From NCBI RefSeq assembly GCF_023630255.1, contig NZ_JALPRS010000001.1, positions 1,612,001 to 1,676,000 on the forward strand: DNA of 64,000 bases, read 5' to 3'. This document shows positions 39,491-56,361 of the stretch, one piece after another. The stretch comes from Pontibacter deserti. GTDB lineage: Bacteria > Bacteroidota > Bacteroidia > Cytophagales > Hymenobacteraceae. The stretch's first letter is position 1. Every line of letters starts with the position of its first letter. The notes beneath the pieces were generated by a model. It was not told the origin of the DNA, made no database searches, and saw only the letters and a program-made list of their open reading frames with translations. The position numbers were made by a program, and so were the translations under genes.

Positions 39491-40453
39491 TTATTTAACT
39501 ACTTCTTTTTCCATCTCCAGTGCTTTCGGGAACAGGATATTGTTCTCTAAGTGGATGTGGCGGAAGAGATCATCTTCAAACTCTTTCAATTTCTTGAAAG
39601 CAACAGTGTAGGTAGCGCAGGCATCCGCCGGCAAAGTATAGCCGTTTGTAAGCTCACGGATTTTCTCCAGTTCAGTACCGGCATGCTCGTGCTCCATCTC
39701 CATCATATTTATCGGGTTCTGGATAGATCCGAAGGCAGCAGGTTCCATCTTCACGCCACTTTTCTTCGCTTCGTCCAGCTGCTTAATGTAAGGGAATAGC
39801 ACGCGCTCTTCTTTTGGCATATGCGATTCCAGCTCGTTTGCTACGTTAGTGAAGTGCTTTACAACTTCTATTAGCTCCGGGTGGCGCTGACCGTGTACGC
39901 GGGCAATTTTAGTAGTATATTCATACAGGGCAGGTATGGCTTCGCGCACATATTTATGGTGCATGTTCACAATATAGTCTGCCAGGAACGATGGCTCCCA
40001 TTTATCGTATTCTGCTTCGCGCGCTTTTTTGGCTTCATCCATCGCTAACAGCTCCTGCTCCAGCTCATCCTGGCTAATGCCTTTTTCTTTGCAAACCTGT
40101 GCCACCGATTTTTTACCGCCGCAGCAGAAATCGATGCCATACTTTTTAAATACCTGTGCTTTGCGGTAATCTTTGGCTACCAGCTCGCCTACAGTTTCGC
40201 CTTCTTCGGGGGTAAGTTTACCGATACGCACTTCCCATACTTCCGGGCCCTGCTCCAGGTACTCCCATTTAAATGTATTGCCACGCTCACCCAACAGTTG
40301 GTAATAAAGTGGTTTCGGATCGTGGTCGTTGTGTATGATAAAAGCTTCGCCACCTTTCAGGTTATCGAACCATTCGAAAATGGTCGGGTGCTTCATGCGT
40401 GGCTCCAGAACGGTTACGTCCAGTGTTTTTTCTATGCTTTGTGTGGTTTCCAT
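39491..40453 (-). CDS. ric: DUF2249-Ric fusion, Fe-S cluster repair di-iron protein
   Basis: 320 residues: an N-terminal DUF2249 domain (about 10-80), a ScdA_N motif with the Cys pair YGIDFCCGGKKS at 110-111, and a C-terminal hemerythrin domain (about 145-315, with HHKYVREAIPAL, HGQRHPELIE, HMPKEERVLFPYI, EHEHAGTELE, HIHLENNILFPKAL). YtfE/ScdA/RIC repairs Fe-S clusters damaged by NO and oxidants. The DUF2249 fusion is extra relative to the common form. It is divergent from nrdJ across a 489-nt region containing an FNR-type inverted repeat. Confidence 0.92.
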   Translation of the reverse strand: METTQSIEKTLDVTVLEPRMKHPTIFEWFDNLKGGEAFIIHNDHDPKPLYYQLLGERGNTFKWEYLEQGPEVWEVRIGKLTPEEGETVGELVAKDYRKAQVFKKYGIDFCCGGKKSVAQVCKEKGISQDELEQELLAMDEAKKAREAEYDKWEPSFLADYIVNMHHKYVREAIPALYEYTTKIARVHGQRHPELIEVVKHFTNVANELESHMPKEERVLFPYIKQLDEAKKSGVKMEPAAFGSIQNPINMMEMEHEHAGTELEKIRELTNGYTLPADACATYTVAFKKLKEFEDDLFRHIHLENNILFPKALEMEKEVVK

Positions 40454-40942: not shown

Positions 40943-43900
40943 ATGAAGAAAAGTAAACGTCCAGCTGGCCTGTCCTTCGCCCGGCACTTTACCACCGCAG
41001 CGCAAAATGCCTACGACATGTTCCGTTACGAGCTCCGCTCCTCCACTATCCGCAACCCGACCGGCGATGTGGTGGCAGAGTTGAACGATGTAGAAGTACC
41101 AACACAATGGTCGCAGATCGCGACAGATATACTTGCTCAAAAATACCTGCGTAAAGCAGGTGTACCACAGGCCGATGGTAGAACCGGCGCTGAGAAATCT
41201 GCTAAACAAGTGGTGCACCGCCTGGTAAAATGCTGGCAGGACTGGGGCAGTAAGTATGGCTATTTCGCTTCGGAGCAGGATGCACAGGTGTTTTATGATG
41301 AACTGGTGTATATGCTGCTGGGCCAGTACGCAGCACCTAACTCGCCTCAGTGGTTCAATACCGGGCTTTATAATTCCTATAGCATCACGGGTAAATCTCA
41401 AGGACACTACTATGTAGACCCGGACACAGGCGAAATGAAGGAATCAGGTTCTGCTTTTGAGCGCCCGCAGCCACATGCCTGTTTTATACTTTCGGTGCAG
41501 GACGACCTGGGCCAGAAAGGCGGTATAATGGACCTGCTGGTGCAGGAAGCACGTGTGTTTAAGTATGGCTCTGGGGTTGGCACTAACTTTTCAAGTATAA
41601 GAGGTAAGGATGAAGCACTTTCGGGTGGCGGTACTTCGTCGGGACTAATGTCGTTTTTAAGGGTGAGCGACCGCGCAGCCGGGGCTATAAAATCGGGTGG
41701 CACTACTCGACGGGCCGCTAAAATGGTGTGCCTGGACCTGGATCACCCGGAGATTCAGGAATTTATAAACTGGAAAAAGGACGAAGAGAAAAAAGTAGCT
41801 GCCCTTATTGCTGCCGGCTATTCCGGCGATTTTGAAGGCGAAGCATACAATACGGTTTCCGGCCAGAACTCCAACAACTCAGTACGGATACCAAATACCT
41901 TCTTTAAAACGCTGCACCAGAACGGAGACTGGCACCTGACTGCCCGAACCGACGGTAAGGTTCTGAAATCTATACCTGCGCGTAATTTGTGGAAGCAGAT
42001 AGCAGAAGCAGCATGGGCCTGCGCCGACCCGGGCGTGCAATTCGATACAACTATAAACGAGTGGCACACCTCTCCGGCTGAAGGCAGAATTAATGCCTCA
42101 AACCCGTGCTCGGAATACATGTTCCTGGATGATACGGCCTGCAACCTGGCATCGCTTAACCTGCTGCGCTTTTTTGATGAAGAGAAACAAGCTTTTGATG
42201 TAGCCGCTTTTGAACATGCCTGCAGACTGTGGACAGTAGTTTTGGAGATATCGGTGCTGATGGCGCAGTTTCCTTCTGAAGTGGTAGCGCAACGCTCTTA
42301 CGATTACAGAACCATAGGTTTGGGTTATGCCAACTTAGGCGCACTGCTTATGGTGCAGGGCCTGCCTTACGATAGCGACGAAGCGCGCGCTTTATCAGCA
42401 GGTATCACATCACTAATGACAGGTTCCGCTTACCGAACTTCCGCTGAAATGGCTGCTAGCTTAGGGGCTTTCGCTAAATACGACATCAACAGCGAAGCCA
42501 TGCTGCGCGTGATGCGCAACCACCGCTTTGCTACTTATAACCAACCGGAGAACTATGAAAAGCTAAGTATAAAACCACACGGCCTGGACCAACAGCTTTG
42601 CCCGGATTACCTGTTAAAAGCCGCGCAACACGCCTGGGACGAAGCACTGCAACAAGGCAAAAAATACGGCTACCGAAATGCACAGGCTACCGTTATCGCC
42701 CCAACCGGAACCATAGGGTTACTGATGGATTGCGACACGACAGGTGTTGAGCCGGATTATGCGCTGGTGAAGTATAAAAAACTATCGGGTGGTGGTTATT
42801 TCAAGATCATCAACCAATCTATACCAGGCGCGCTTAACAAATTAGGTTATAGTTCTGAAGAAATAGAGGCTATAGTTAATTATGCCAAAGGCCATAGTAC
42901 ACTTACCGACTCACCGCACATCAACCCGGAATCTTTGCTACAAAAAGGTTTAACAGAAGAGGAGATTACCAACCTGGAAGCAGTATTACCAAAAGCATAT
43001 GATCTGTCGTCGCTCTTTAATGTTTATACTTTAGGCGAAGCCTGTTTACAGCGTTTAGGTTATACTTCAGCTGAGTACCAAAACCCAGGGTTTAATTTGC
43101 TGCATGCCTTAGGCTATACTTCCAAACAGATAGAAGAAGCGAACGACTACGTTTGCGGAACAATGACCGTAGAAGGCGCGCCATACCTGAAGCCTGAACA
43201 TTACGCTGTCTTTGATTGCGCCAACCGCTGCGGCAGCAAAGGCAAACGCTTTATACACGCCGAAGGGCACATTAAAATGATGGCCGCGGTGCAACCGTTC
43301 ATTTCCGGGGCGATCTCTAAAACCATAAACCTACCCAACGAAACCACTGTGGAAGAAGTAGCCCGCTGCTACGAACTGTCTTGGGAACTGGGTCTGAAAG
43401 CCTGCTCTATTTACCGCGATGGCAGCAAACTTTCTCAACCTCTCACATCAAAAAGCAGCAGCTCTGTAAGCGAAGAAAAACCTGCTGCCGAGACAAGTAT
43501 AGCCAACGAAAAATATAATGCAGAGCAAGTGTTGCAGGCAGCCAAAGCTATACTTTCAGATGCATCTAACGCAGGCTTCCGAGAGCAGCTGACTCGCATG
43601 GTGGAGCGCCGCAAACTACCGGATAAACGCAACGGATTTACCCAAAAGGCAAAAATAGATGGACATACGGTTTATATCAGAACAGGTGAGTATGCCGATG
43701 GATCTTTAGGTGAGTTGTTCATTGATATGTACAAGGAAGGTGCATCTTTCCGGTCTATACTTAACTGCTTTGCTATTTCAGTATCGCTGGGTTTGCAGTA
43801 TGGCGTGCCGCTGGAAGAGTTTGTGAACCGCTTTACCTTTACCCGTTTCGAACCAGCCGGCCGTGTGGAGCACCCGAATATAAAGTCGGCTACCTCGGTG

Positions 43901-44236
43901 TTCGACTACATTTTCAGGATGCTGGGGTATGAGTACCTCAACAGAAAAGACCTGGTGCACGTGCAGCCCGAAGAACCGGAAATTATAGATGAAACACCAA
44001 CTGTAAATCTACCAGAGCAGGCAACAACTATAGTTACAGAAACATCCACCAAGACCAATGGAAAGAGCTACTCAGTTGTTACCCAAAGTAGAACGGTGCT
44101 GATGGAGCAAACGCAACAGGTACTGGCCAGCATGATGGGCGATGCCCCCATTTGCAACGTGTGTGGCCATATCACTATCCGCTCCGGCACCTGTTACAAG
44201 TGTTTGAACTGCGGCAATAGTTTAGGCTGTAGTTAA
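40943..44236 (+). CDS. nrdJ: Class II (adenosylcobalamin-dependent) ribonucleoside-diphosphate reductase
   Basis: 1097 residues. Catalytic-barrel motif NPCSEY at about residues 387-392, APTGTIGLLMDCDTTGVEPD near 585-605, and a C-terminal zinc-ribbon redox tail with CNVCGH and CYKCLNCG. It reduces ribonucleotides with a B12 radical and needs no oxygen. Its promoter has the FNR-type site shared with norC and nos, so it is probably induced under anoxia or NO, when tyrosyl-radical RNRs fail. No B12 riboswitch seen upstream. Confidence 0.95.
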   Translation: MKKSKRPAGLSFARHFTTAAQNAYDMFRYELRSSTIRNPTGDVVAELNDVEVPTQWSQIATDILAQKYLRKAGVPQADGRTGAEKSAKQVVHRLVKCWQDWGSKYGYFASEQDAQVFYDELVYMLLGQYAAPNSPQWFNTGLYNSYSITGKSQGHYYVDPDTGEMKESGSAFERPQPHACFILSVQDDLGQKGGIMDLLVQEARVFKYGSGVGTNFSSIRGKDEALSGGGTSSGLMSFLRVSDRAAGAIKSGGTTRRAAKMVCLDLDHPEIQEFINWKKDEEKKVAALIAAGYSGDFEGEAYNTVSGQNSNNSVRIPNTFFKTLHQNGDWHLTARTDGKVLKSIPARNLWKQIAEAAWACADPGVQFDTTINEWHTSPAEGRINASNPCSEYMFLDDTACNLASLNLLRFFDEEKQAFDVAAFEHACRLWTVVLEISVLMAQFPSEVVAQRSYDYRTIGLGYANLGALLMVQGLPYDSDEARALSAGITSLMTGSAYRTSAEMAASLGAFAKYDINSEAMLRVMRNHRFATYNQPENYEKLSIKPHGLDQQLCPDYLLKAAQHAWDEALQQGKKYGYRNAQATVIAPTGTIGLLMDCDTTGVEPDYALVKYKKLSGGGYFKIINQSIPGALNKLGYSSEEIEAIVNYAKGHSTLTDSPHINPESLLQKGLTEEEITNLEAVLPKAYDLSSLFNVYTLGEACLQRLGYTSAEYQNPGFNLLHALGYTSKQIEEANDYVCGTMTVEGAPYLKPEHYAVFDCANRCGSKGKRFIHAEGHIKMMAAVQPFISGAISKTINLPNETTVEEVARCYELSWELGLKACSIYRDGSKLSQPLTSKSSSSVSEEKPAAETSIANEKYNAEQVLQAAKAILSDASNAGFREQLTRMVERRKLPDKRNGFTQKAKIDGHTVYIRTGEYADGSLGELFIDMYKEGASFRSILNCFAISVSLGLQYGVPLEEFVNRFTFTRFEPAGRVEHPNIKSATSVFDYIFRMLGYEYLNRKDLVHVQPEEPEIIDETPTVNLPEQATTIVTETSTKTNGKSYSVVTQSRTVLMEQTQQVLASMMGDAPICNVCGHITIRSGTCYKCLNCGNSLGCS

Positions 44237-44334: not shown

Positions 44335-44730
44335 ATGACAGAAAAGAAAGATATACTGCGTTTAGAGGATGTAAAATTGCTGGTAGATACCTTTTACACA
44401 AGAGTGCGGGCTGATGAATTGCTGGGACCAATATTTGACGAGCGCATTCAGGACAGATGGGCGCGCCACCTGGATATTATGTACCGTTTCTGGCAAACCG
44501 TATTGCTCGATGAGCTGACTTACCAGGGCGCTCCCGGCTCAAAACACATTACCCTGCCTGTTGATGCAGCACATTTTGAACGCTGGATACTGCTGTTTTA
44601 TACAACTATAGACGAATTGTTTACCGGCGAGAAAGCAGAAGAAGCAAAATGGCGTGCCCAGAAAATGGCCGATATGTTCGCCAGCAAAATAGAATACTAT
44701 AAACAGAACAAGGGAAGGACAATTCTGTAA
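44335..44730 (+). CDS. Group III truncated hemoglobin
   Basis: 131 residues. Globin 2/2 fold with LLVDTFYTRVRADELLGPIF, WARHLDIMYRFWQTVLL, and HITLPVDAAHFERWILLFYTTID containing the proximal His, which fits group III. These proteins bind O2 and NO and may detoxify NO. It lies about 100 nt after nrdJ, separated by a REP-like palindrome, and convergent to an oxidase-like gene. No terminator is evident after it. Confidence 0.9.
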   Translation: MTEKKDILRLEDVKLLVDTFYTRVRADELLGPIFDERIQDRWARHLDIMYRFWQTVLLDELTYQGAPGSKHITLPVDAAHFERWILLFYTTIDELFTGEKAEEAKWRAQKMADMFASKIEYYKQNKGRTIL

Positions 44731-44778: not shown

Positions 44779-46071
44779 TTATACTCTCTTCAATTTAAAT
44801 TCAGGCTCTTGTAGTTCGCCCAGATTTATACTTCGATTAACACGAAACTGCGAGATGAAGAACAGGATCAGACCGAACGGCAAAAGTATACTTACTCCAA
44901 ATAGCAACTCGTTATAGTGTGGCATTGCTCCGAGTCCTGCCCAGTAAAAAATACCTTGCAAGAATAACAAGGCTTCGCTGCTAAAAAAGCCTAGTATAAA
45001 CAGGCCTATCCCCCACCGGCTTAGGGCTGTTTTAAAACTTAGCCAACCCTGCTGCACAAAAAAAGCAAGTATAAAAAAGCTGACGAACCCGATAAGCACC
45101 AGGTGCAGGTAACCGATTATGAAGTTGCGCAATTGATAAGCTAGATTTGCCATGTATGGGAATGTGGTAGTGAACTGCATCAGGGTTTTAAGTATAAAAG
45201 CGGTAGCTGCAAGTATAAGTATGGCCCGAGCCCAGTTGCCAAATAAACCCAGCAATTGCTTACGAATCGGCCAAAGTATAAACACCAGAATAGCCAAAGA
45301 AATTACCTGGGTCAGCGCTGCGACTCCACCTAAAAAGTAAACGATAGCATCCGGTTTTATCCAGAGCACAGACAGCAGGTAAGCAGGCAAACAGGCCCAG
45401 AACATCAGCCTGAAAAACAGCAAACTATACTTTACATTAAAGCTGATCTTATACTTCTCCAGTAACCAGAATAATAAGCCTAAGACTGCAAATGTGAGCC
45501 AGCCGTTGTACAGAAAATGCAGGTAAAAATAGATGGCATTATAGTATAGTTCGGTAAAGCTGTTACCTGTCGCCATGACCGGCCCCATACTCCAGGGCCC
45601 CAGCGACGAAAGCGCCAGGAAAAACAAGGCAGCCTTCACAAACCGGAACGACAAACTATAGGTACCAACACTTACTTTTGCAGTTTTGGCATCTTTCAGG
45701 AAGCGGTAAATAAACCAGTAGGTAAAGAGAATATGCACCGTAGAAAAAGTTATGGAAACTGCCCCATACCCCTGCACCGGAAAACTCAGTAACATGCCCA
45801 GCACCGCCCCCTGCGCCAGCCAGAATTGCCAGGTATACGTTTTCTTGCTCTGTAAATCTGCTGGCAAGTACGCATGCAAAAGTGCAATAAAAAGTGCCGG
45901 GTAAAGCCACCCAAGCAGCGCCACATGCGAGTGCGCGTGTAGCAGGAATTTATAGTTCAGCACAGTAACAGGTACTACAAATGTCCAGCGCAGCAACAGG
46001 CCCAACATGGCAATAAGCACCAGGTTGAGTAGTGCAGCTAAAAGCCAGTTTCTTTTTAAGTGCAGGTTCAA
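44779..46071 (-). CDS. Heme-copper-oxidase-like / NnrS-like 12-TM membrane protein
   Basis: 430 residues with about 12 hydrophobic segments. Histidines in FLLHAHSHVALLGWLYPALF, IYFYLHFLYNGWL and IIGYLHLVLIGFVSFF resemble heme-binding positions of the NnrS/CcoN-like group. It is distantly similar in style to the protein at 36697. It starts 33 nt after the thioredoxin-like gene and may share its promoter. Function unknown; NO-related role inferred from the island. Confidence 0.55.
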   Translation of the reverse strand: MNLHLKRNWLLAALLNLVLIAMLGLLLRWTFVVPVTVLNYKFLLHAHSHVALLGWLYPALFIALLHAYLPADLQSKKTYTWQFWLAQGAVLGMLLSFPVQGYGAVSITFSTVHILFTYWFIYRFLKDAKTAKVSVGTYSLSFRFVKAALFFLALSSLGPWSMGPVMATGNSFTELYYNAIYFYLHFLYNGWLTFAVLGLLFWLLEKYKISFNVKYSLLFFRLMFWACLPAYLLSVLWIKPDAIVYFLGGVAALTQVISLAILVFILWPIRKQLLGLFGNWARAILILAATAFILKTLMQFTTTFPYMANLAYQLRNFIIGYLHLVLIGFVSFFILAFFVQQGWLSFKTALSRWGIGLFILGFFSSEALLFLQGIFYWAGLGAMPHYNELLFGVSILLPFGLILFFISQFRVNRSINLGELQEPEFKLKRV

Positions 46072-46783: not shown

Positions 46784-46801
46784 AAGTGATCCAAGTCACT
46801 T
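46784..46801. promoter_or_regulatory. Second FNR-type inverted repeat in the norC / thioredoxin intergenic region
   Basis: AAGTGA-TCCAAG-TCACTT, perfect 6-bp arms, core TGA-N6-TCA as in the other sites. It lies 50 nt upstream of the thioredoxin-like ATG at 46734 and does not have the 51.5-bp spacing to an obvious -7 box on either side. Confidence 0.5.
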
Positions 46802-46853: not shown

Positions 46854-46919
46854 AATGATGCATGTCACTTTTGTGACTGACGATACTCATTTCAGGTAGT
46901 GACTAGTATAGGTAGCTTG
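46854..46919 (+). promoter_or_regulatory. FNR-type site and -7 element of norCB
   Basis: AATGATGCATGTCACTT at 46854-46870 has the TGA-N6-TCA core centred at 46861.5. TAGCTTG begins at 46913, exactly 51.5 bp downstream, as at nrdJ and nos. A further perfect repeat GTCAC-TTTT-GTGAC overlaps at 46864-46877. Confidence 0.65.
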
Positions 46920-46949
46920 CAGGATGTTACCATATTAAAGTTCCTGCCT

Positions 46950-47402
46950 ATGTTAGATCGTATCCTTGGTACAGCAATTGGAATCAAATGCATTTATGGT
47001 TGCCTTTTTATCTGCTTCCTGTTTTTTACTGCCTTTGTTTATACTGCCGAAGTACCGGATACTGCGCCTCTACCGCAACAGGAACTAGCCCTGCAGGGCA
47101 AACACATCTGGCAGAAACATAACTGCTCTGCGTGCCACCAGTTTTATGGGTTGGGTGGTTACATTGGCCCCGATGTTACAAATGTGATGTCTGCCAAGGG
47201 TAAGGGCGAAAGTTACGTGCGAGCTGTATTACAAAACGGTACAGCAACCATGCCTGATTTTAACTTAAGTGTAAAGGATGTGGATGCACTTGTAGCTTTT
47301 CTGATAGAAGCCGACAAAACAGGGAAATCGGGAAGAGAGCATTTCCTGGCCGATAACTTTGGTCAGATTCATCCTAAGAGGAAAAAGTCCCCACGCAACT
47401 AA
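46950..47402 (+). CDS. norC: Nitric oxide reductase cytochrome c subunit (NorC-like)
   Basis: 150 residues from ATG 46950, preferred over GTG 46899 because the predicted transcription start lies near 46923. One N-terminal membrane anchor (about 11-31) and one heme c motif CSACH at residues 59-63, with Met in ATMPDFNLS as probable second ligand. It passes electrons to NorB, whose gene starts 8 nt downstream. Its promoter has the FNR-type site shared with nrdJ and nos. Confidence 0.85.
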   Translation: MLDRILGTAIGIKCIYGCLFICFLFFTAFVYTAEVPDTAPLPQQELALQGKHIWQKHNCSACHQFYGLGGYIGPDVTNVMSAKGKGESYVRAVLQNGTATMPDFNLSVKDVDALVAFLIEADKTGKSGREHFLADNFGQIHPKRKKSPRN

Positions 47403-47410
47403 CCTAACAC

Positions 47411-48778
47411 ATGAACAGATCCATCGGGTTCTTGAGTATTGCCACTGGCCTTTGTTTCCTGGTAGCAGGCATTTTATTTGGCAGTCTAGGAGGTATCTTC
47501 TACCTGTTTCCGCAGGAACTCCGCGACCTCTTACCTTTTACCAAACTTCGCCCCCTGCACGTCTCGTCTGTTATTTTCTGGATACTATTTACAGCCATCG
47601 GTGGCTTATACTTATACCTGCCAAAGCATAAAACCAGGTTGGCAAACAAGCTGGGACTGGGGCAGTATCTGTTATTGTTAACGGCAGCTGTAGCTATACC
47701 TGGCTGCTACATAGCCGGCATTTTTGGTGGCCGCGAGTATTGGGAATACCCGCCCATACTTGGATTACTTATCGCAGCTTCTTTTATACTTCTAGGCATC
47801 AACTTTTATAAGAGCATCCGGCATAAACCTGCAAAAGAGCCCTGGCCTGTTTACCGCTGGATGTGGCTTTCCGGTATAGTGTTCTTTATACTTTCGTTTG
47901 CCGAATCTTACCTGTGGCTGTTGCCTTACTTTAAACAGAACCTGGTGCGTGACATGGCTGTGCAGTGGAAATCCTACGGTTCGCTGGTTGGTTCCTGGAA
48001 CATGCTGATAAACGGAAGCGCTCTGTTTGTGATGGAAAAAATCAGCGGTGATAAAACGACAGCCCGAAAACCCCTCACTTTTTTTATGTTCTTCCTGGGC
48101 TTGTTTAACCTCATGTTTAACTGGGGGCACCACATTTACAACCTGCCTGTCAGCAATATTATCCGGTATACGGCTTACCTCGTGAGCATGACCGAGCTGC
48201 TTATACTTGCCAAAATTATCTGGAACTGGCGCAGCAGCCTGAGCCAGGCACAAAAGTATAAACACATCCTATCTTACCGCTTCTTCACCGCTGCCGATAT
48301 CTGGATCTTGTTAAACCTGGTCATGGCTATCCTGATGTCGGTGCCGGCAATAAATCTTTACTCGCATGGCACGCACATTACCGTGGCTCACGCAATGGGT
48401 ACCACCATAGGCATTAATACCATGTTGTTGCTGGCATCGGTTTGTTATGCCTGCAGCCGCTTTTTTGGTGATTTCAGTCAGCCTAAACTGAAACTATTGA
48501 ACAGGGGTTTATACCTGAGCAATGCTTCACTACTTATTTTCTGGGTAGCCCTGATAGGTGCAGGTATAGGGAAAGCCATACTTCAGACTGATAACCCGGA
48601 TCTTCCGCATGCCATCCTCATGCAGCAACTTATACCTTGGTTCATCGGCTTTGCAATGTCTGGTTTAGGGGTGGCAACAGGTATTGTACTTATGGTATGG
48701 CCACTTCTTACTACTATCCTGAAACTCAAAAAACTACCCCATCCCGAACAACCTCAACGGCATTTACAGCCTTTATAA
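47411..48778 (+). CDS. norB: Divergent nitric oxide reductase large subunit (NorB-like)
   Basis: 455 residues, about 12 membrane segments, typical NorB length. It retains RPLHVSSVIFW (His50), NWGHHIYNLP (His240-241) and YSHGTHITVAHAM (His327). A gapless comparison from memory with cNorB puts Tyr189, Val193 and Asn197 where the FeB histidine and two glutamates of HLWVEGVWE would be, and Met329 where the low-spin heme histidine would be. It may belong to one of the non-classical NOR groups. It reduces NO to N2O by inference from norC pairing and nos neighbours. Confidence 0.75.
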   Translation: MNRSIGFLSIATGLCFLVAGILFGSLGGIFYLFPQELRDLLPFTKLRPLHVSSVIFWILFTAIGGLYLYLPKHKTRLANKLGLGQYLLLLTAAVAIPGCYIAGIFGGREYWEYPPILGLLIAASFILLGINFYKSIRHKPAKEPWPVYRWMWLSGIVFFILSFAESYLWLLPYFKQNLVRDMAVQWKSYGSLVGSWNMLINGSALFVMEKISGDKTTARKPLTFFMFFLGLFNLMFNWGHHIYNLPVSNIIRYTAYLVSMTELLILAKIIWNWRSSLSQAQKYKHILSYRFFTAADIWILLNLVMAILMSVPAINLYSHGTHITVAHAMGTTIGINTMLLLASVCYACSRFFGDFSQPKLKLLNRGLYLSNASLLIFWVALIGAGIGKAILQTDNPDLPHAILMQQLIPWFIGFAMSGLGVATGIVLMVWPLLTTILKLKKLPHPEQPQRHLQPL

Positions 48779-50442: not shown

Positions 50443-51210
50443 CTACAGATCCCGTCTTGAGAAGATCCTCCTGGAACTCATAAAAGGAACGATCACCCAC
50501 ACCAGCAACAAACCAAAGGCCAGCCCTATACCCCACAAATTACCCAGCAAACTCTTATAAAGGGCACCGGTGTAACCCATCAGTGCCGATACATCCAGGT
50601 TCAGCAATACAATTATTCTGCCCAGATCTATCGGGTTCAGGGCTGTTAAAGCTAGTGTTGCATTCTCGAGTGGGTAATCGCTGAAGGAATAAAGTATAAA
50701 CAGTACAATGCCATCATATATCAGGGCAAAGTAAAACCACAGCAGCAGTGCTATACCTATACCTTTGGCTTTATCACGGGTAATAACAGATGCCAGGAAC
50801 GCCATCGCCACAAAAATGAACGTTATGAACACGCCTGTAAGCACCAGGTATAAACCGGTTATACTTGCTCCAAAAAGCAGCATCGGCACGCCCACGCCAA
50901 GTATAAAAGCCCCCGAAAGCGAACAAGCCACGCCCAGGTACTCGCTCATAAATATCTTTTTACGGTTGATAGGCTGCGCTACCAGCAGTTCCATAAACTC
51001 ATAGGAGTTGTAAAAGTGCGTAGTGGCAAAAACGATACTGATCAGCGGCACGGTAAGCAGTACAATGTTCAGCAGGCTAAGTATAGCTTTATCCGGGTTG
51101 CCGCCCAGGTTAAATAACCCGATAGTAAGCAACAACAGGAACAAAGTATAAGCCACTATAATCTTGTTCCGGATGATGTCGTAGAAAACGTATTTGATGA
51201 TCTTGTTCAT
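50443..51210 (-). CDS. nosY: NosY, ABC-2 type permease of the Nos maturation transporter
   Basis: 255 residues with six membrane segments, ABC-2 type. It starts 3 nt after nosF and is the last gene of the nos operon before a terminator. NosDFY builds the CuZ centre of NosZ by moving a copper or sulfur species, with NosF as ATPase and NosD as periplasmic partner. The call rests on position and fold. Confidence 0.88.
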   Translation of the reverse strand: MNKIIKYVFYDIIRNKIIVAYTLFLLLLTIGLFNLGGNPDKAILSLLNIVLLTVPLISIVFATTHFYNSYEFMELLVAQPINRKKIFMSEYLGVACSLSGAFILGVGVPMLLFGASITGLYLVLTGVFITFIFVAMAFLASVITRDKAKGIGIALLLWFYFALIYDGIVLFILYSFSDYPLENATLALTALNPIDLGRIIVLLNLDVSALMGYTGALYKSLLGNLWGIGLAFGLLLVWVIVPFMSSRRIFSRRDL

Positions 51211-51213
51211 GGC

Positions 51214-51921
51214 TTAGTCCTCCTCGTTCAGAATTTTGGCAATGGCGCGGCTCAGGCGTTCTTCGTTTGTCTGAGCTTTAATATCGGCGATGGTATCATG
51301 GAATTTCACCTGCCCGTCTACCATACACATCACTTCATCGGCTACCTCCTCTACTTCACTCATAATATGTGATGTGATCAGGATCAGCTTCCCTTTCTTC
51401 TTCTCTTTCAGAATTTTACTTTTCAGTATTTCTGCTGAGATCGGGTCCAGGCCGGCAGTAGGTTCATCGAGGATCAGGATCTTCGGATCGAACATAAAGG
51501 CAAGGGCGGCGCTTACTTTTTGCTTCGTCCCCCCAGATAAAGCCCCCATCCGTTTTTCATACATATCCTTTAAACCATAAAGCCCGATCAGTTCTTCATC
51601 TACCTGCTTCACATCTTTGCGTATGTCTCGTATCATGTCGATCACTTGGCGGATCTTCATGTTTTCGGGGTAACGGCCTATCTGCGGCATATACCCTATC
51701 TGACTGCGGTAGGCGTGTTCTTTAAGTATACTTTTACCACTAATTTTAATATCACCCCCATCAGGTAGCACCATACCAAGCATACACTTTATCATGGTGG
51801 TTTTACCGGAGCCATTAGGCCCAATGACCGACACTACTTTTCCGGGATCGAAGCTGACACTAACGCCACCCAGCACCTGCAGCTTACCGTACGACTTGCG
51901 TAAGTTTTCTATTGTTATCAT
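51214..51921 (-). CDS. nosF: NosF, ATP-binding protein of the Nos maturation transporter
   Basis: 235 residues. Walker A SVIGPNGSGKTTMIKCMLG, signature GALSGGTKQKVSAALAF, Walker B KILILDEPTAGLDP and switch His in LITSHIMSEVEE. Its start overlaps nosD by 38 nt, an unusually long overlap that points to tight coupling. Energises NosY. Confidence 0.92.
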   Translation of the reverse strand: MITIENLRKSYGKLQVLGGVSVSFDPGKVVSVIGPNGSGKTTMIKCMLGMVLPDGGDIKISGKSILKEHAYRSQIGYMPQIGRYPENMKIRQVIDMIRDIRKDVKQVDEELIGLYGLKDMYEKRMGALSGGTKQKVSAALAFMFDPKILILDEPTAGLDPISAEILKSKILKEKKKGKLILITSHIMSEVEEVADEVMCMVDGQVKFHDTIADIKAQTNEERLSRAIAKILNEED

Positions 51922-53182
51922 AATTTATCTTCTTCATCATTGGCTGCTCGTCGAGCAGACTCTCAGGTATAAAGCTTGGCATCACCTTCTCAATATTGTC
52001 CATCAGGTCAACCATAAAACTGCGCATAAACATTACAGAAGGCGGCACTTTCTCTACCAACATCGAGTATAAGCTAACCGGACGGTACGACACATCTCCT
52101 ACTCTGTCTTTGTTCAGGTCGTAGCCGCTATACTTGTCCCAGTAGTTGTTCTCGAACAGGTTCATAGTTGGGGTACCGTTCGTACTCACATCAAAAGAAT
52201 TGCCTGTAAAGTTGTTCAGCTTAAAGGTATCCTCAATGCAGCTGCTCAGGAGCCTGATCGCCCAGCCGTTTTTATCAAATTCGTTTCTCTGTATATCCAG
52301 CCGGCTGGAGCTTTCCATGTAAATGCCAGTGGTGTTTCTGCGGAATGTGTTGTGGTAAATTACGCTGTTTGTGATCTCTTTCAGCAGCAGACCATACGCG
52401 GCAGCGCCCCAGTTACCCTCAAAAGTGTTGTGCTCCATCCGGATGTTACGTGTATACATTACAGCCACTCCCGCCCCATTTTTACGGAAAGTGTTGTGCG
52501 TGTACACGTTGCCGTCCGAAAACATAAAGTGCAGCCCGTAACGCAGGTTGTTCTGGCTCAGGTTATTCTTCACTTCGCTGTCCTTTACAAACTCCAGGTA
52601 AATACCATCGCGGTGGCCATTTACTTTGTTATTGCTGATAACCGCATTGTTGCAGTACCACAGATGGATAGCATTACCCAAAGCCGATTCATTTAACCCG
52701 GTTACATCTTTACCCGACACTATATTCCCTTTGATTACACAGTTTTCTGAGTTTTGCAGGTAGATGCCGAAGTACGTATTAAGTATAGTATTATTAAGTA
52801 TGCGGATATTGTTACGTTCCACCACGCGTATAGCAGCATCATCCTGACGGTAGCTGGTGGCAATGTTTTTTATGGTAAGGCCCTCTATAGTTACATTGTC
52901 GGCTACAACTGTAAATACCTGGCCTTTATAGTTTCCATCAATTACCGGCTTGTTCTGGCCTAGTATTGTGATTGGCTTATCGATTACAATTCCATGCTCC
53001 TTGTACACTCCCTTCTGGATCAGTACGGTATCGCCTGGTTTAGCTTTTTTTACCGCCTGTTTTACCGAAGTATAGGTACAGGTTTTACACACTTTAAGCG
53101 TACTGCCGAAGGCAACATTAGCCCACAGCAGCAACACCGAAGTGCTTACTATAAGAAAAATATTTTTACTCAGGTTTTTCAT
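51884..53182 (-). CDS. nosD: NosD, periplasmic beta-helix copper-site assembly protein
   Basis: 432 residues. Sec signal to about residue 26, then a parallel beta-helix of CASH/NosD repeats (NNIRILNNTILNTYFGIYLQ style, with NxxxxN ladders, about 60-350). It starts 17 nt inside the nosL end and overlaps nosF. It works with NosFY to assemble CuZ in NosZ. Length and repeats fit the family. Confidence 0.93.
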   Translation of the reverse strand: MKNLSKNIFLIVSTSVLLLWANVAFGSTLKVCKTCTYTSVKQAVKKAKPGDTVLIQKGVYKEHGIVIDKPITILGQNKPVIDGNYKGQVFTVVADNVTIEGLTIKNIATSYRQDDAAIRVVERNNIRILNNTILNTYFGIYLQNSENCVIKGNIVSGKDVTGLNESALGNAIHLWYCNNAVISNNKVNGHRDGIYLEFVKDSEVKNNLSQNNLRYGLHFMFSDGNVYTHNTFRKNGAGVAVMYTRNIRMEHNTFEGNWGAAAYGLLLKEITNSVIYHNTFRRNTTGIYMESSSRLDIQRNEFDKNGWAIRLLSSCIEDTFKLNNFTGNSFDVSTNGTPTMNLFENNYWDKYSGYDLNKDRVGDVSYRPVSLYSMLVEKVPPSVMFMRSFMVDLMDNIEKVMPSFIPESLLDEQPMMKKINYDNNRKLTQVVR

Positions 53183-53627
53183 TGTTCTTCACGGCTGTTA
53201 CCGCTTCGTTCCAGGTCAGCAGGCGACCGCCGTGCTCCTGATGCATTTTAGTTGCTGCAGTTTTATCGGCTACGGCTGTTAAGTATAAGCCCATCGGGCT
53301 TGGCAGATTTTTGCTCTGCAGGTAATGTGCTTTTCGTGCATCAATCAGCTCGCCGGGTTTTGTAAAATCGCTTACAAGTATAAAAGATGCTTTTTCAGCT
53401 AATTCAGTTTGCTCATTCACATACGCCATCAAACATTCCGACGAATCGAAAAAGAAGGCTTTGCCTTTATCATTTACCAGTTCTGCTCCATAGCGGTTAT
53501 CGGCTACGGTCATGTTGCAGTGCGCACAGTTAGCGGCTCCGTATGGTATTGGTTTCTGCTCTGGCTTGCAGCTAACTATAGCACTAAGTATAAACAGCAA
53601 CCCAACTATTTTCAAGACTGGTTTCAT
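53166..53627 (-). CDS. nosL: NosL, copper-binding lipoprotein
   Basis: 153 residues. Lipobox AIVSC (Cys20). NosL motif NCAHCNMTVADNRYGAEL and FFDSSECLMAY, with Met and Cys candidates for Cu(I) binding. It delivers copper to NosZ. Its ATG overlaps the stop of the upstream membrane-protein gene by 4 nt. Confidence 0.92.
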   Translation of the reverse strand: MKPVLKIVGLLFILSAIVSCKPEQKPIPYGAANCAHCNMTVADNRYGAELVNDKGKAFFFDSSECLMAYVNEQTELAEKASFILVSDFTKPGELIDARKAHYLQSKNLPSPMGLYLTAVADKTAATKMHQEHGGRLLTWNEAVTAVKNNEKPE

Positions 53628-54318: not shown

Positions 54319-56361
54319 CTATTTTGCTGATGCTACTCCTGGAATATTTTGTTTCTTTTTACCTGTCGAGAATTTGATAGGTACGTTAGATCCTTTTGGA
54401 GAAACCCTCACATATCCCTGCATCTCCTGGTGCAGCGCAGAGCAGAAGTCGGTACAATACATTGGGTATACCCCTGCTTTTTTAGGTACCCATCTCAGGG
54501 TTTGAGTAGCACCCGGCATGATCAGCGTTTCGGCAGTATTTGCGCCCATCACTGCAAATCCGTGCGGTACATCCCAGTCTTGTTCCAGGTTAGTTACGTG
54601 GAAGAGCACAGTATCCCCAACCTGCACACCTTCAATATTATCCGGTGTAAAGTGGCTTCGGATAGAAGTCATTTTCACGATAACTTTATTGCCTTTGCGG
54701 GTCACATTCGCTTCGCTTTCCTTCTTAGCGGCCTGCGGGTGCTTGTTCTCATCCAGTTTGTGGAATTTAACACTATTAGGCGCAACCTTGCTGGCAACTA
54801 TAGCCTGTGCGTAGTGCGGCTCGGCCACGGTCGGGAAGTCAAGCAGCATCTTCATTTTCTCACCAGAGATGTCAATCAGCTGTGCAGAGTGCGCCAGTTC
54901 AGGGCCTGTTGGCAGGTAACGGTCTTTGGTGATCTTGTTCATCGCCACCAGGTATTTGCCATGCGGCTCTTTTGTATCGCCACCAGGTATCATTAAGTGA
55001 CCAACTGAGTAGTACACCGGAATTCTGTCTACAACTTTTAGGTCTTTCAGCTTCCACTTCACAACTTCAGAAGACACGAACATGGAAGTATAGGCATTTC
55101 CTTTACCGTCGAACTCAGTGTGCAATGGTCCTAAGCCCGGCTCTTTTACTTCACCTTTCAGTACCGATTCATACTTCAGCACTGGTATACCGTTCTTCTC
55201 GCCATCAAACTGCTTGTTCTTGATAGCATCCTGCATTTTAGCGAAAGAGAATACAGGTATAGCTGAGGCCAGTTTACCACTAACTACCATGAACTCACCG
55301 CTTGGATCCACATCGATACCGTGTGGTGATTTAGGTGCAGGCAGCAGGTACATCATACCTGGGCACTCTTCTGGAAGCAGGTAACGCACTTTTTTCTTCA
55401 CAGTAGATTTAGCAGTGTGCGTGTTTTTGTCCAGCTTGTTATGGTAGTAGTTAGCAGGCATTTCATGCAGCTTACCTTCTTTGGCATACTTGGCCGCAAG
55501 TTTCCAGTTTATAGCAGCCAGGTAATCTTTATCGTTTTGAGAAGCACCGATCTCTTTAAGAGTACCAGATTTTTCAGAGTTATAAGTTGTAAAGAATACC
55601 CAGTCTTCAGACGGGCCTTTGCCACCATTAGCTAAGTCATAGTCAAAACCAGGCACCAGGATCTGGAAATCCAGCTCCATGTCGCCTTCTTTCGGATCTA
55701 CTTTAATAAAGGAGATTGAGCCACGGAATTCTTCTTCATACTTATCAAGTGCTACGTCGCCTGTACTGCCTTTCATATCCAGCGGAACAGAGAAGCGGGT
55801 ACCTGCAATTACATACTCGTTGTTGTTGGTTGGATAAGGAGAGCAGTGGTTACCAGCTGAGTTCGGGATCTCCATGATCTCCACAGTCTCGAAGGTTTTA
55901 AGGTCCACACGGGCTACACGTGGCGTGTTGTTACCATTCACAAACAACCAGCGGCCATCGGTTTGTCCGTCTGTACGTGACAGTTTCGGGTGGTGCAGGT
56001 CATCCCAAGGCACAAAACCGTGAGAGGTTTGTAGCATAGCCTTGGTCTCTTCGTTGTAACCATAACCATTCTCCGCGTGCTGCGAGAACACCGGGATGAT
56101 CTTTAACAATCTGCCTGAAGGCAAACCGTAAACAGATACCTGCCCGTTAAAACCACCTGACAGGAAAGAATAAAGCTCATCGTGCTTGCCCGGCGCTACA
56201 TACACCGCTGAAGCAGCATCTGAAGATAAAGCATCTGCAGTTGCACCGCCATTACCACCATCAGATTTAGTGCAGCTCTGTAATACCGCGCCGGTCGCCA
56301 GGGCCATCAGCAGGGCAGCTTTAGGAGCCGCTGTTTTTAATTTATTGATCAGTGTTTCCAT
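54319..56361 (-). CDS. nosZ: Nitrous oxide reductase, clade II
   Basis: 680 residues. Seven-bladed propeller with CuZ histidines in DLHHPKL (123-124), GNHCSPYP (172), SPHGIDVDPSG, GPLHTEFDGKG, VGHLMIPGGD and AEPHYAQA. A C-terminal cupredoxin holds CuA ligands in DVPHGF (His600) and YCTDFCSALHQEM (Cys636, Cys640, His644, Met647). The signal is not twin-arginine but Sec, with a lipobox-like LQSC at Cys30, so the enzyme may be lipid-anchored. It reduces N2O to N2 in the periplasm. Confidence 0.96.
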   Translation of the reverse strand: METLINKLKTAAPKAALLMALATGAVLQSCTKSDGGNGGATADALSSDAASAVYVAPGKHDELYSFLSGGFNGQVSVYGLPSGRLLKIIPVFSQHAENGYGYNEETKAMLQTSHGFVPWDDLHHPKLSRTDGQTDGRWLFVNGNNTPRVARVDLKTFETVEIMEIPNSAGNHCSPYPTNNNEYVIAGTRFSVPLDMKGSTGDVALDKYEEEFRGSISFIKVDPKEGDMELDFQILVPGFDYDLANGGKGPSEDWVFFTTYNSEKSGTLKEIGASQNDKDYLAAINWKLAAKYAKEGKLHEMPANYYHNKLDKNTHTAKSTVKKKVRYLLPEECPGMMYLLPAPKSPHGIDVDPSGEFMVVSGKLASAIPVFSFAKMQDAIKNKQFDGEKNGIPVLKYESVLKGEVKEPGLGPLHTEFDGKGNAYTSMFVSSEVVKWKLKDLKVVDRIPVYYSVGHLMIPGGDTKEPHGKYLVAMNKITKDRYLPTGPELAHSAQLIDISGEKMKMLLDFPTVAEPHYAQAIVASKVAPNSVKFHKLDENKHPQAAKKESEANVTRKGNKVIVKMTSIRSHFTPDNIEGVQVGDTVLFHVTNLEQDWDVPHGFAVMGANTAETLIMPGATQTLRWVPKKAGVYPMYCTDFCSALHQEMQGYVRVSPKGSNVPIKFSTGKKKQNIPGVASAK

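Follow-up and report, generated by a model that had tools for sequence, protein, structure and literature searches.

Reduction of nitric oxide (NO) by heme-copper enzymes is taught as requiring a pair of a heme and a non-heme metal, held by three histidines and glutamate. C-type oxidases are expected to carry a three-His CuB site together with an active-site tyrosine in helix VII. A six-histidine signature is given for the heme-copper oxidase superfamily (PMC3413370). The NO reductases cNOR and qNOR are described as relatives of the C-family, and bNOR, eNOR, sNOR, gNOR and nNOR as relatives of the B-family (PMC11388526). NorQ and NorD are required for insertion of FeB into cNOR, not into qNOR, and cNOR lacking FeB is inactive (PMC9976466). 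Putative NO dismutases (NODs) are qNOR-like proteins with Asn for one coordinating His and Gln for a Glu close to the centre; they keep all His but one and apparently use no outside electrons (PMC3413370).

The window, i.e. the whole stretch of DNA that was analysed (64,000 nucleotides of Pontibacter deserti), carries a norC-like gene followed by a norB-like gene (Table 1). The NorB-like protein matches the Pfam COX1 profile with 103 bits (cut-off 34.8), and the ccoN family also matches it, far under that family's cut-off. Comparison with PDB sequences by phmmer (E up to 1) yields two matches, both of them cNorB: 3o0r_B (E 6e-8) and 4xyd_A (E 4e-6). PDB matches of the NorC-like protein (E up to 0.001) are NorC only, 3o0r_C (E 6e-11) and 4xyd_B, the NorC of the same two cNOR structures; its identity with Agrobacterium NorC is 29%. 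Pairing with a NorC-like cytochrome and a position beside nos had been claimed in an earlier note on this DNA. The former is borne out by these matches, and the latter holds within the window. The closest named relative among the matches listed is from Pontibacter (86% identical). The genome of the window encodes two further COX1 proteins, of which one (L002) clusters with CcoN in the tree described below; the other (L001) gave no match to the family profile, the rows of which included an ordinary cNorB (L014), so that ordinary cNorB scored higher with it.

Table 1. Features in the window around the norC-like and norB-like genes (positions are those of the window).
Feature	Position	Strand	Remarks
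RIC/ScdA-type di-iron Fe-S repair protein, DUF2249 domain	39491..40453	-	NO-response neighbour; TIGR03652
Large ORF	40943..44236	+	resembles B12-dependent ribonucleotide reductase, by eye
Truncated haemoglobin-like protein	44335..44730	+	NO-related neighbour; Pfam PF01152
430-aa membrane protein	44779..46071	-	heme-copper oxidase fold by model; neighbour, possibly NO-related
Palindrome GTGATCCAAGTCAC	46786..46799	.	upstream of norC-like gene; pattern in 3/81 upstream regions, the window's own and L015 among them
Palindrome GTCACTTTTGTGAC	46864..46877	.	upstream of norC-like gene; pattern in 1/81 upstream regions
NorC-like monoheme membrane cytochrome c	46899..47402	+	start possibly ATG at 46950 instead; stops 8 bases before norB-like gene
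NorB-like catalytic subunit	47411..48778	+	clean ORF, 455 aa; Pfam COX1, phmmer, family conservation
Likely nosY, nosF, nosD, nosL	50443..53627	-	named by eye from translations
NosZ, TIGR04246 type	54319..56361	-	928.7 bits; match at 54397-56214

The first palindrome is, we assume, FNR/CRP-like. A conserved FNR-like operator was rejected, given the frequency of GTGA-N6-TCAC in the upstream regions (3/81; shuffles mean 0.35, max 2). The 430-aa protein two genes from the norB-like gene has no Pfam or NCBIfam match. Its AlphaFold model (pLDDT 80.3, pTM 0.84) aligns to CcoN with Z 31.3 over 405 residues, and His 45, 47, 49, 185 and 323 are invariant in 9 aligned sequences; it appears to be a second divergent protein of the heme-copper oxidase fold.

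Related genes form a family of at least 83 members, mostly from Bacteroidota and some from Gammaproteobacteria. Ten members, the window's own included, were obtained from genome searches, and 73 from GTDB contigs, where they were drawn from the best 80 of 339 confirmed stretches. L003 and L015-L021 (duplicates of L004-L011) as well as L014 were removed before the counts of 83; near-identical sets remain among these (e.g. L035/L036/L040). L047, L079, L081, L083, L084, L088 and L093 were left out of alignment A2. A plasmid search returned 221 records, all with less than 60% identity (best listed about 25%).

Ligand positions were mapped by three comparisons: phmmer, a joint MAFFT alignment of the family with cNor, qNor and CcoN, and hhalign of A2 versus A3. 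In all three, H240-H241 coincide with the FeB His pair, H50 with the first low-spin His and H327 with the b3 His, M329 stands at the position of the second low-spin His, and V193 and N197 occupy the Glu positions of canonical NORs. Which residue binds which metal, and the residue names in P. aeruginosa and P. denitrificans, are assumed here. In the canonical NORs of A3 (7 cNor, 4 qNor) the helix-VI His, both Glu and the HxH motif are present in 11/11, as is a Glu aligned to E262, which is absent from the three CcoN rows shown.

Within the family, H240, H241, H327, M329, K187, N197 and E262 are invariant (83/83), and so is H50 in the 81 rows reaching that column (81/81); H322 is found in 82/83. 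The set H50, K187, N197, H240, H241, E262, H327 and M329 is likewise invariant in 32 rows, each less than 68% identical to the others, and the family has 62 invariant columns in 74 sequences. Hence, the altered ligands are not a quirk of one gene, and the strict conservation of H240, H241, H327 and M329 argues for a working protein. Of the six signature His of the superfamily, the family keeps four, namely H50, H240, H241 and H327. None of the 83 members has a His within residues 182-207 or an acidic residue within 189-204. From the window's gene it had been proposed that the third FeB His and both glutamates are lost and that HAM stands in place of HxH. All of this holds for the window's protein, and the losses, like H327 and M329, extend to the whole family. 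Helix VI has no conserved His or acidic residue, which speaks against a supply of the canonical ligands by other residues. The claim that Tyr189 takes the place of an FeB His depends on the alignment. Y189 is aligned with this His by phmmer and MAFFT, whereas hhalign puts a gap there. Since the residue at 189 differs between members (Tyr in 68, Asn in 9, Met in 3, others; n=83), Tyr189 is not a fixed ligand and was rejected as replacement. The loss of the helix-VI His is independent of this alignment, because the whole segment 182-207 is free of His.

M329 presumably serves as the second axial ligand of the low-spin heme in place of His. H322 is unlikely to be the missing low-spin ligand: it lies on the same helix seven residues before M329, which is invariant.

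A phylogeny with cNOR and qNOR, which the earlier note had suggested as a check, places the family in a clade of its own outside cNOR, qNOR and cbb3 CcoN. In a maximum likelihood tree of 70 rows (41 family rows and selected reference loci; L103, a fragment, L120 and several CcoN omitted) the family forms one clade with support 100/99, and a split with support 100/100 separates cNor and qNor from the family and CcoN. In a tree of 35 rows, a smaller selection, grouping of the family with cNor (AU p 0.013) or with qNor (AU p 0.012) is rejected. Placement inside ordinary cNorB is found in neither tree, as far as long branches allow. The deep branch order is unsure, because the inner branch is short (0.076) and the stems are long in the 35-row tree, so that long branches may meet. 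As a side observation, L102 (G112), a 456-aa ORF with the motifs WNGAHH and GHAHM, is a free-standing CcoN-like protein whose branch lies apart from the 11 CcoN rows included in the tree.

These data bear on the idea that the gene is a degenerate cNorB, i.e. a decaying copy of ordinary cNOR, as the lost key ligands and the NorC-like partner may suggest. The number of invariant columns, the single well-supported clade and the rejected grouping with cNOR make this reading extremely improbable.

An AlphaFold model of the NorB-like protein (74 rows; pLDDT 86.9, pTM 0.89) aligns to CcoN 3mk7_D with Z 39.1 (434 residues, 2.7 A), to cNorB 4xyd_A with Z 38.5 (415 residues, 2.5 A) and to cNorB 3o0r_B with Z 36.8 (418 residues, 2.6 A), so that CcoN and cNorB match it about equally well. 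The 12-helix subunit-I fold together with the COX1 profile places the protein in the heme-copper oxidase superfamily.

With cbb3 CcoN the family has in common the fold (Z 39), a QW at the start of helix VI and the side of the tree. A cbb3-related oxygen reductase that acquired a NorC-type donor would be in line with the trees, where the c/qNOR split leaves the family with CcoN, and with the top structural Z, although the latter is tied with that of cNorB (39.1 and 38.5). However, the third His of CuB and the helix-VII Tyr are missing from the family, with Leu at the place of the Tyr in 82/83 members, HxM is found rather than HxH, and the partner found is NorC. In addition, the NOR-type Glu (E262) is retained, and the window's genome already has CcoN (L002) and one more COX1 protein. 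We regard an oxygen reductase as quite improbable on these grounds. The position of the active-site Tyr in CcoN is taken here as an assumption.

The family resembles cNOR (P. aeruginosa 3O0R, Roseobacter denitrificans 4XYD) in the two-subunit layout with NorC, in the fold, in H50, H240, H241, H327 and E262, and in the motif GRE[FY].E. It differs from cNOR by the lack of the helix-VI FeB His and of either Glu there, by Met for the second low-spin His in place of the bis-His arrangement, by the lack of nearby NorQ and NorD in the loci searched, and by forming a separate clade. Fold (Z about 30) and NO-gene context are shared with qNOR (NorZ), which differs in its N-terminal extension (the window's protein has 455 aa) and in its FeB His and Glu; the family has a separate NorC and is a clade of its own.

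The family is also without the helix-VI His, and one Glu place is taken by an invariant Asn, which recalls the putative NODs with their loss of one coordinating His and a Glu. An enzyme of this kind would convert 2 NO to N2 and O2. We consider it very improbable here, since the family has a separate NorC, has also lost HxH and is not grouped with qNOR (AU p 0.012), the NODs having been compared by description only. The putative NODs are qNOR-like with other replacements, and the excerpts of their description report no loss of the low-spin His (PMC3413370).

Based on its sequence, the family is a heme-copper/NOR-like one outside cNOR, qNOR and cbb3, with the non-classical NORs set apart by their descriptions. 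The earlier note had offered two options, one of the non-classical NOR families or a new variant with different metal chemistry. The first is not favoured, as the relatives by sequence and fold are cNorB and CcoN, and bNOR, eNOR, sNOR, gNOR and nNOR are set apart as above; the second is the better of the two, with a metal content that we infer. Our best reading is that, within the C-type/NOR branch of heme-copper enzymes, it is a lineage distinct from cNOR, qNOR and cbb3 oxidase.

In 80/83 loci, a NorC homologue is encoded no more than 400 bases from the gene. In two of the remaining three it is farther off, and in one the contig starts 113 bases before the gene. All called NorC partners have one CxxCH (75/75). 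NorQ or NorD gave no match near the gene in any family locus (n=83, of which 68 extend at least 4 kb downstream; loci only), and NorQ was found in 10/14 canonical cNorB loci.

Neighbours were counted in 58 loci that extend at least 4 kb in each direction and in 20 arbitrary windows of carrier genomes, here called control windows (one arbitrary place per genome; 10/30 stretches dropped as shorter than 10 kb). An Rrf2 regulator is near the gene in 24/58 loci (0/20 control windows), and a RIC-type protein or one of its domains in 16/58 (0/20). At least one of the eight types of NO-response or nos genes is present in 35/58 loci versus 0/20 control windows (p 6e-7 for the set), in a test that favours the family because the gene clusters were defined from its own neighbourhoods, and with control windows of mostly 16 kb versus about 17 kb for family loci, none of them from the three NirS-bearing Gammaproteobacteria. 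The NO-related set was chosen by function, and cluster representatives were identified by Pfam. NnrS-like (6/58), globin (8/58), NosZ (9/58) and hemerythrin (5/58) genes are not significant alone. Homologues of the large ORF in Table 1 are not significant either (9/58 family loci versus 0/20 control windows). The canonical NORs in L128 and L131 are also flanked by Rrf2, DUF542 or globin genes. RIC is presumably the same as DnrN. Core genes of NO regulons include dnrN, nnrS and nor (PMC1274295).

Further genes recur around the family. PTPS-domain (e.g. L037) and DGC-domain (e.g. L054) genes are each found in 22/58 loci versus 0/20 control windows. In L023, L031, L034, L072 and L076 a 430-aa protein, which we take to be NnrS-like, is encoded near the family gene; its COX1 match falls slightly short of the cut-off, and it adjoins DUF1858/DUF2249 genes, with hemerythrin or Rrf2 in some of these loci.

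The frequency of Rrf2 regulators may suggest a membrane protein responsive to NO or redox state, serving as sensor or as electron-transfer module, in which heme b3 binds NO (or O2/CO) and the stripped B site allows no turnover. Absence of the FeB His and both Glu next to conserved heme-side residues would fit such a module. However, a cytochrome c donor adjoining the gene in 80/83 loci suits turnover better, and the two B-site His and E262 are invariant. A sensor is therefore unlikely in our view.

Co-occurrence with nir, nosZ and canonical NOR genes was analysed in 50 carrier genomes (G291-G340, taken from the 73 loci L022-L094) and 30 control genomes, hand-picked from genomes of the same class and order. 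NosZ over cut-off was found in 33/50 carriers versus 20/30 controls and NirK over cut-off in 11/50 versus 8/30, with no enrichment of either. Canonical c/qNOR was equally common in both (11/50 versus 8/30), and full-length NirS was found in 3/50 carriers versus 0/26 controls searched. The NirS search added G000, G027, G043 and G046. The search for canonical NOR also covered carriers G050, G055, G062, G078 and G241, outside the NosZ, NirK and NirS searches, and found none there. As the counts are similar, carriers are overall not richer in nos or nir and not poorer in canonical NOR, and a link with nosZ or nirK by genome co-occurrence was rejected.

Among genomes with NirK or NirS, 11/14 carriers versus 2/8 controls are without canonical c/qNOR (Fisher p 0.026), in a comparison that is post hoc and small, has non-independent rows, counts c/qNOR only and compares complete controls with many carriers that are MAGs, whose completeness is unstated. 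If the borderline G326 (NirK 295 bits, cut-off 296.3) is counted, the result is 11/15 (p 0.039), and for NirK alone, without Gammaproteobacteria, it is 8/11 carriers versus 2/8 controls (p 0.07). Two further genomes were left out of the NirK count: G313, whose NirK-like match contains stops, and G131 (176.5 bits). Neither NirK nor full-length NirS was found in the genome of the window.

In 50 Pontibacter genomes, the family was found in 6, NosZ over cut-off in 40, NirK in 25 and qNOR in 32. qNOR is present in 4/6 carriers versus 28/44 non-carriers, which gives no clear pattern of the family replacing qNOR in this genus. G000 and G027 have the family gene and NosZ without qNOR. G027 also has NirK, and its family gene is the only C-type NOR-like gene beside NirK and NosZ in the genome. 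The family gene and nosZ are on one contig, within about 10 kb of each other, in 5/6 Pontibacter carriers, and on separate contigs in G043. In several Pontibacter genomes (G010, G012, G039 and others), two full nosZ genes lie at a distance of about 7 kb.

Based on this dataset, we lean towards an NO-consuming complex of two subunits, NorCB-like and fed by cytochrome c, whose catalytic subunit is encoded by this gene. The NorC partner, the predicted fold, the NO-gene context, the conserved substitutions, the retained H50, H240, H241 and H327, the NOR-type E262 and Leu at the place of the CcoN Tyr suggest this reading, and so does the proportion of Nir-bearing carriers without c/qNOR (11/14), together with G027. 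Against it stand the lack of nosZ or nirK enrichment, the equal frequency of canonical NORs in carriers and controls, the presence of qNOR in 4/6 Pontibacter carriers, and the lack of NirK and full-length NirS in the window's genome. The strongest counterpoint is that the FeB His is lost together with both Glu, since cNOR without FeB is inactive; therefore, the family uses other chemistry or does something else.

In the NO-consuming complex, the NorC-like and NorB-like products would be joined, and electrons would pass from a periplasmic cytochrome c to NorC, to the low-spin heme b and to the heme b3 on H327. The low-spin heme b would be held by H50 and M329 (His/Met), and a high potential is expected for it. 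The B site opposite heme b3, with two His only, may hold a two-His metal or no metal; copper is plausible, because the FeB-loading chaperones are missing nearby. The invariant K187 and N197 and the retained E262 may help to bind NO or to deliver protons. The product would most likely be N2O, and the role NO detoxification or low-oxygen respiration.

We put forward, tentatively and as a possibility, that the family is a distinct NO-reducing heme-copper class. Its members would form the N-N bond without the three-His FeB/CuB site or the FeB glutamates, by means of heme b3, a two-His B site (with copper or empty) and the invariant lysine, fed by a His/Met low-spin heme b, and would act as an NO sink in Bacteroidota and some Gammaproteobacteria.

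Among the titles and abstract starts listed by literature searches, no description was found of a NorB that has HxM and lacks the His of helix VI; the survey of NOR diversity by Murali (2024) may describe or name the group. The family is widespread and apparently undescribed in print. According to one genome survey, 9% of the Bacteroidota that have denitrification genes carry nir and nosZ but no nor (PMC12569097). A marine survey infers for nir-bearing MAGs an unknown way of detoxifying NO (PMC10359470). Both surveys screen matches for conserved ligands or active-site residues (PMC12569097, PMC10359470). Hence, the family could be missed by them.

A conserved NorC-fed family without the set of three His and Glu would test which parts NO reduction needs. 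If the NO-consuming reading is true, ligand-based gene curation has discarded an NO sink, and the family may represent an overlooked bacterial route for NO removal.
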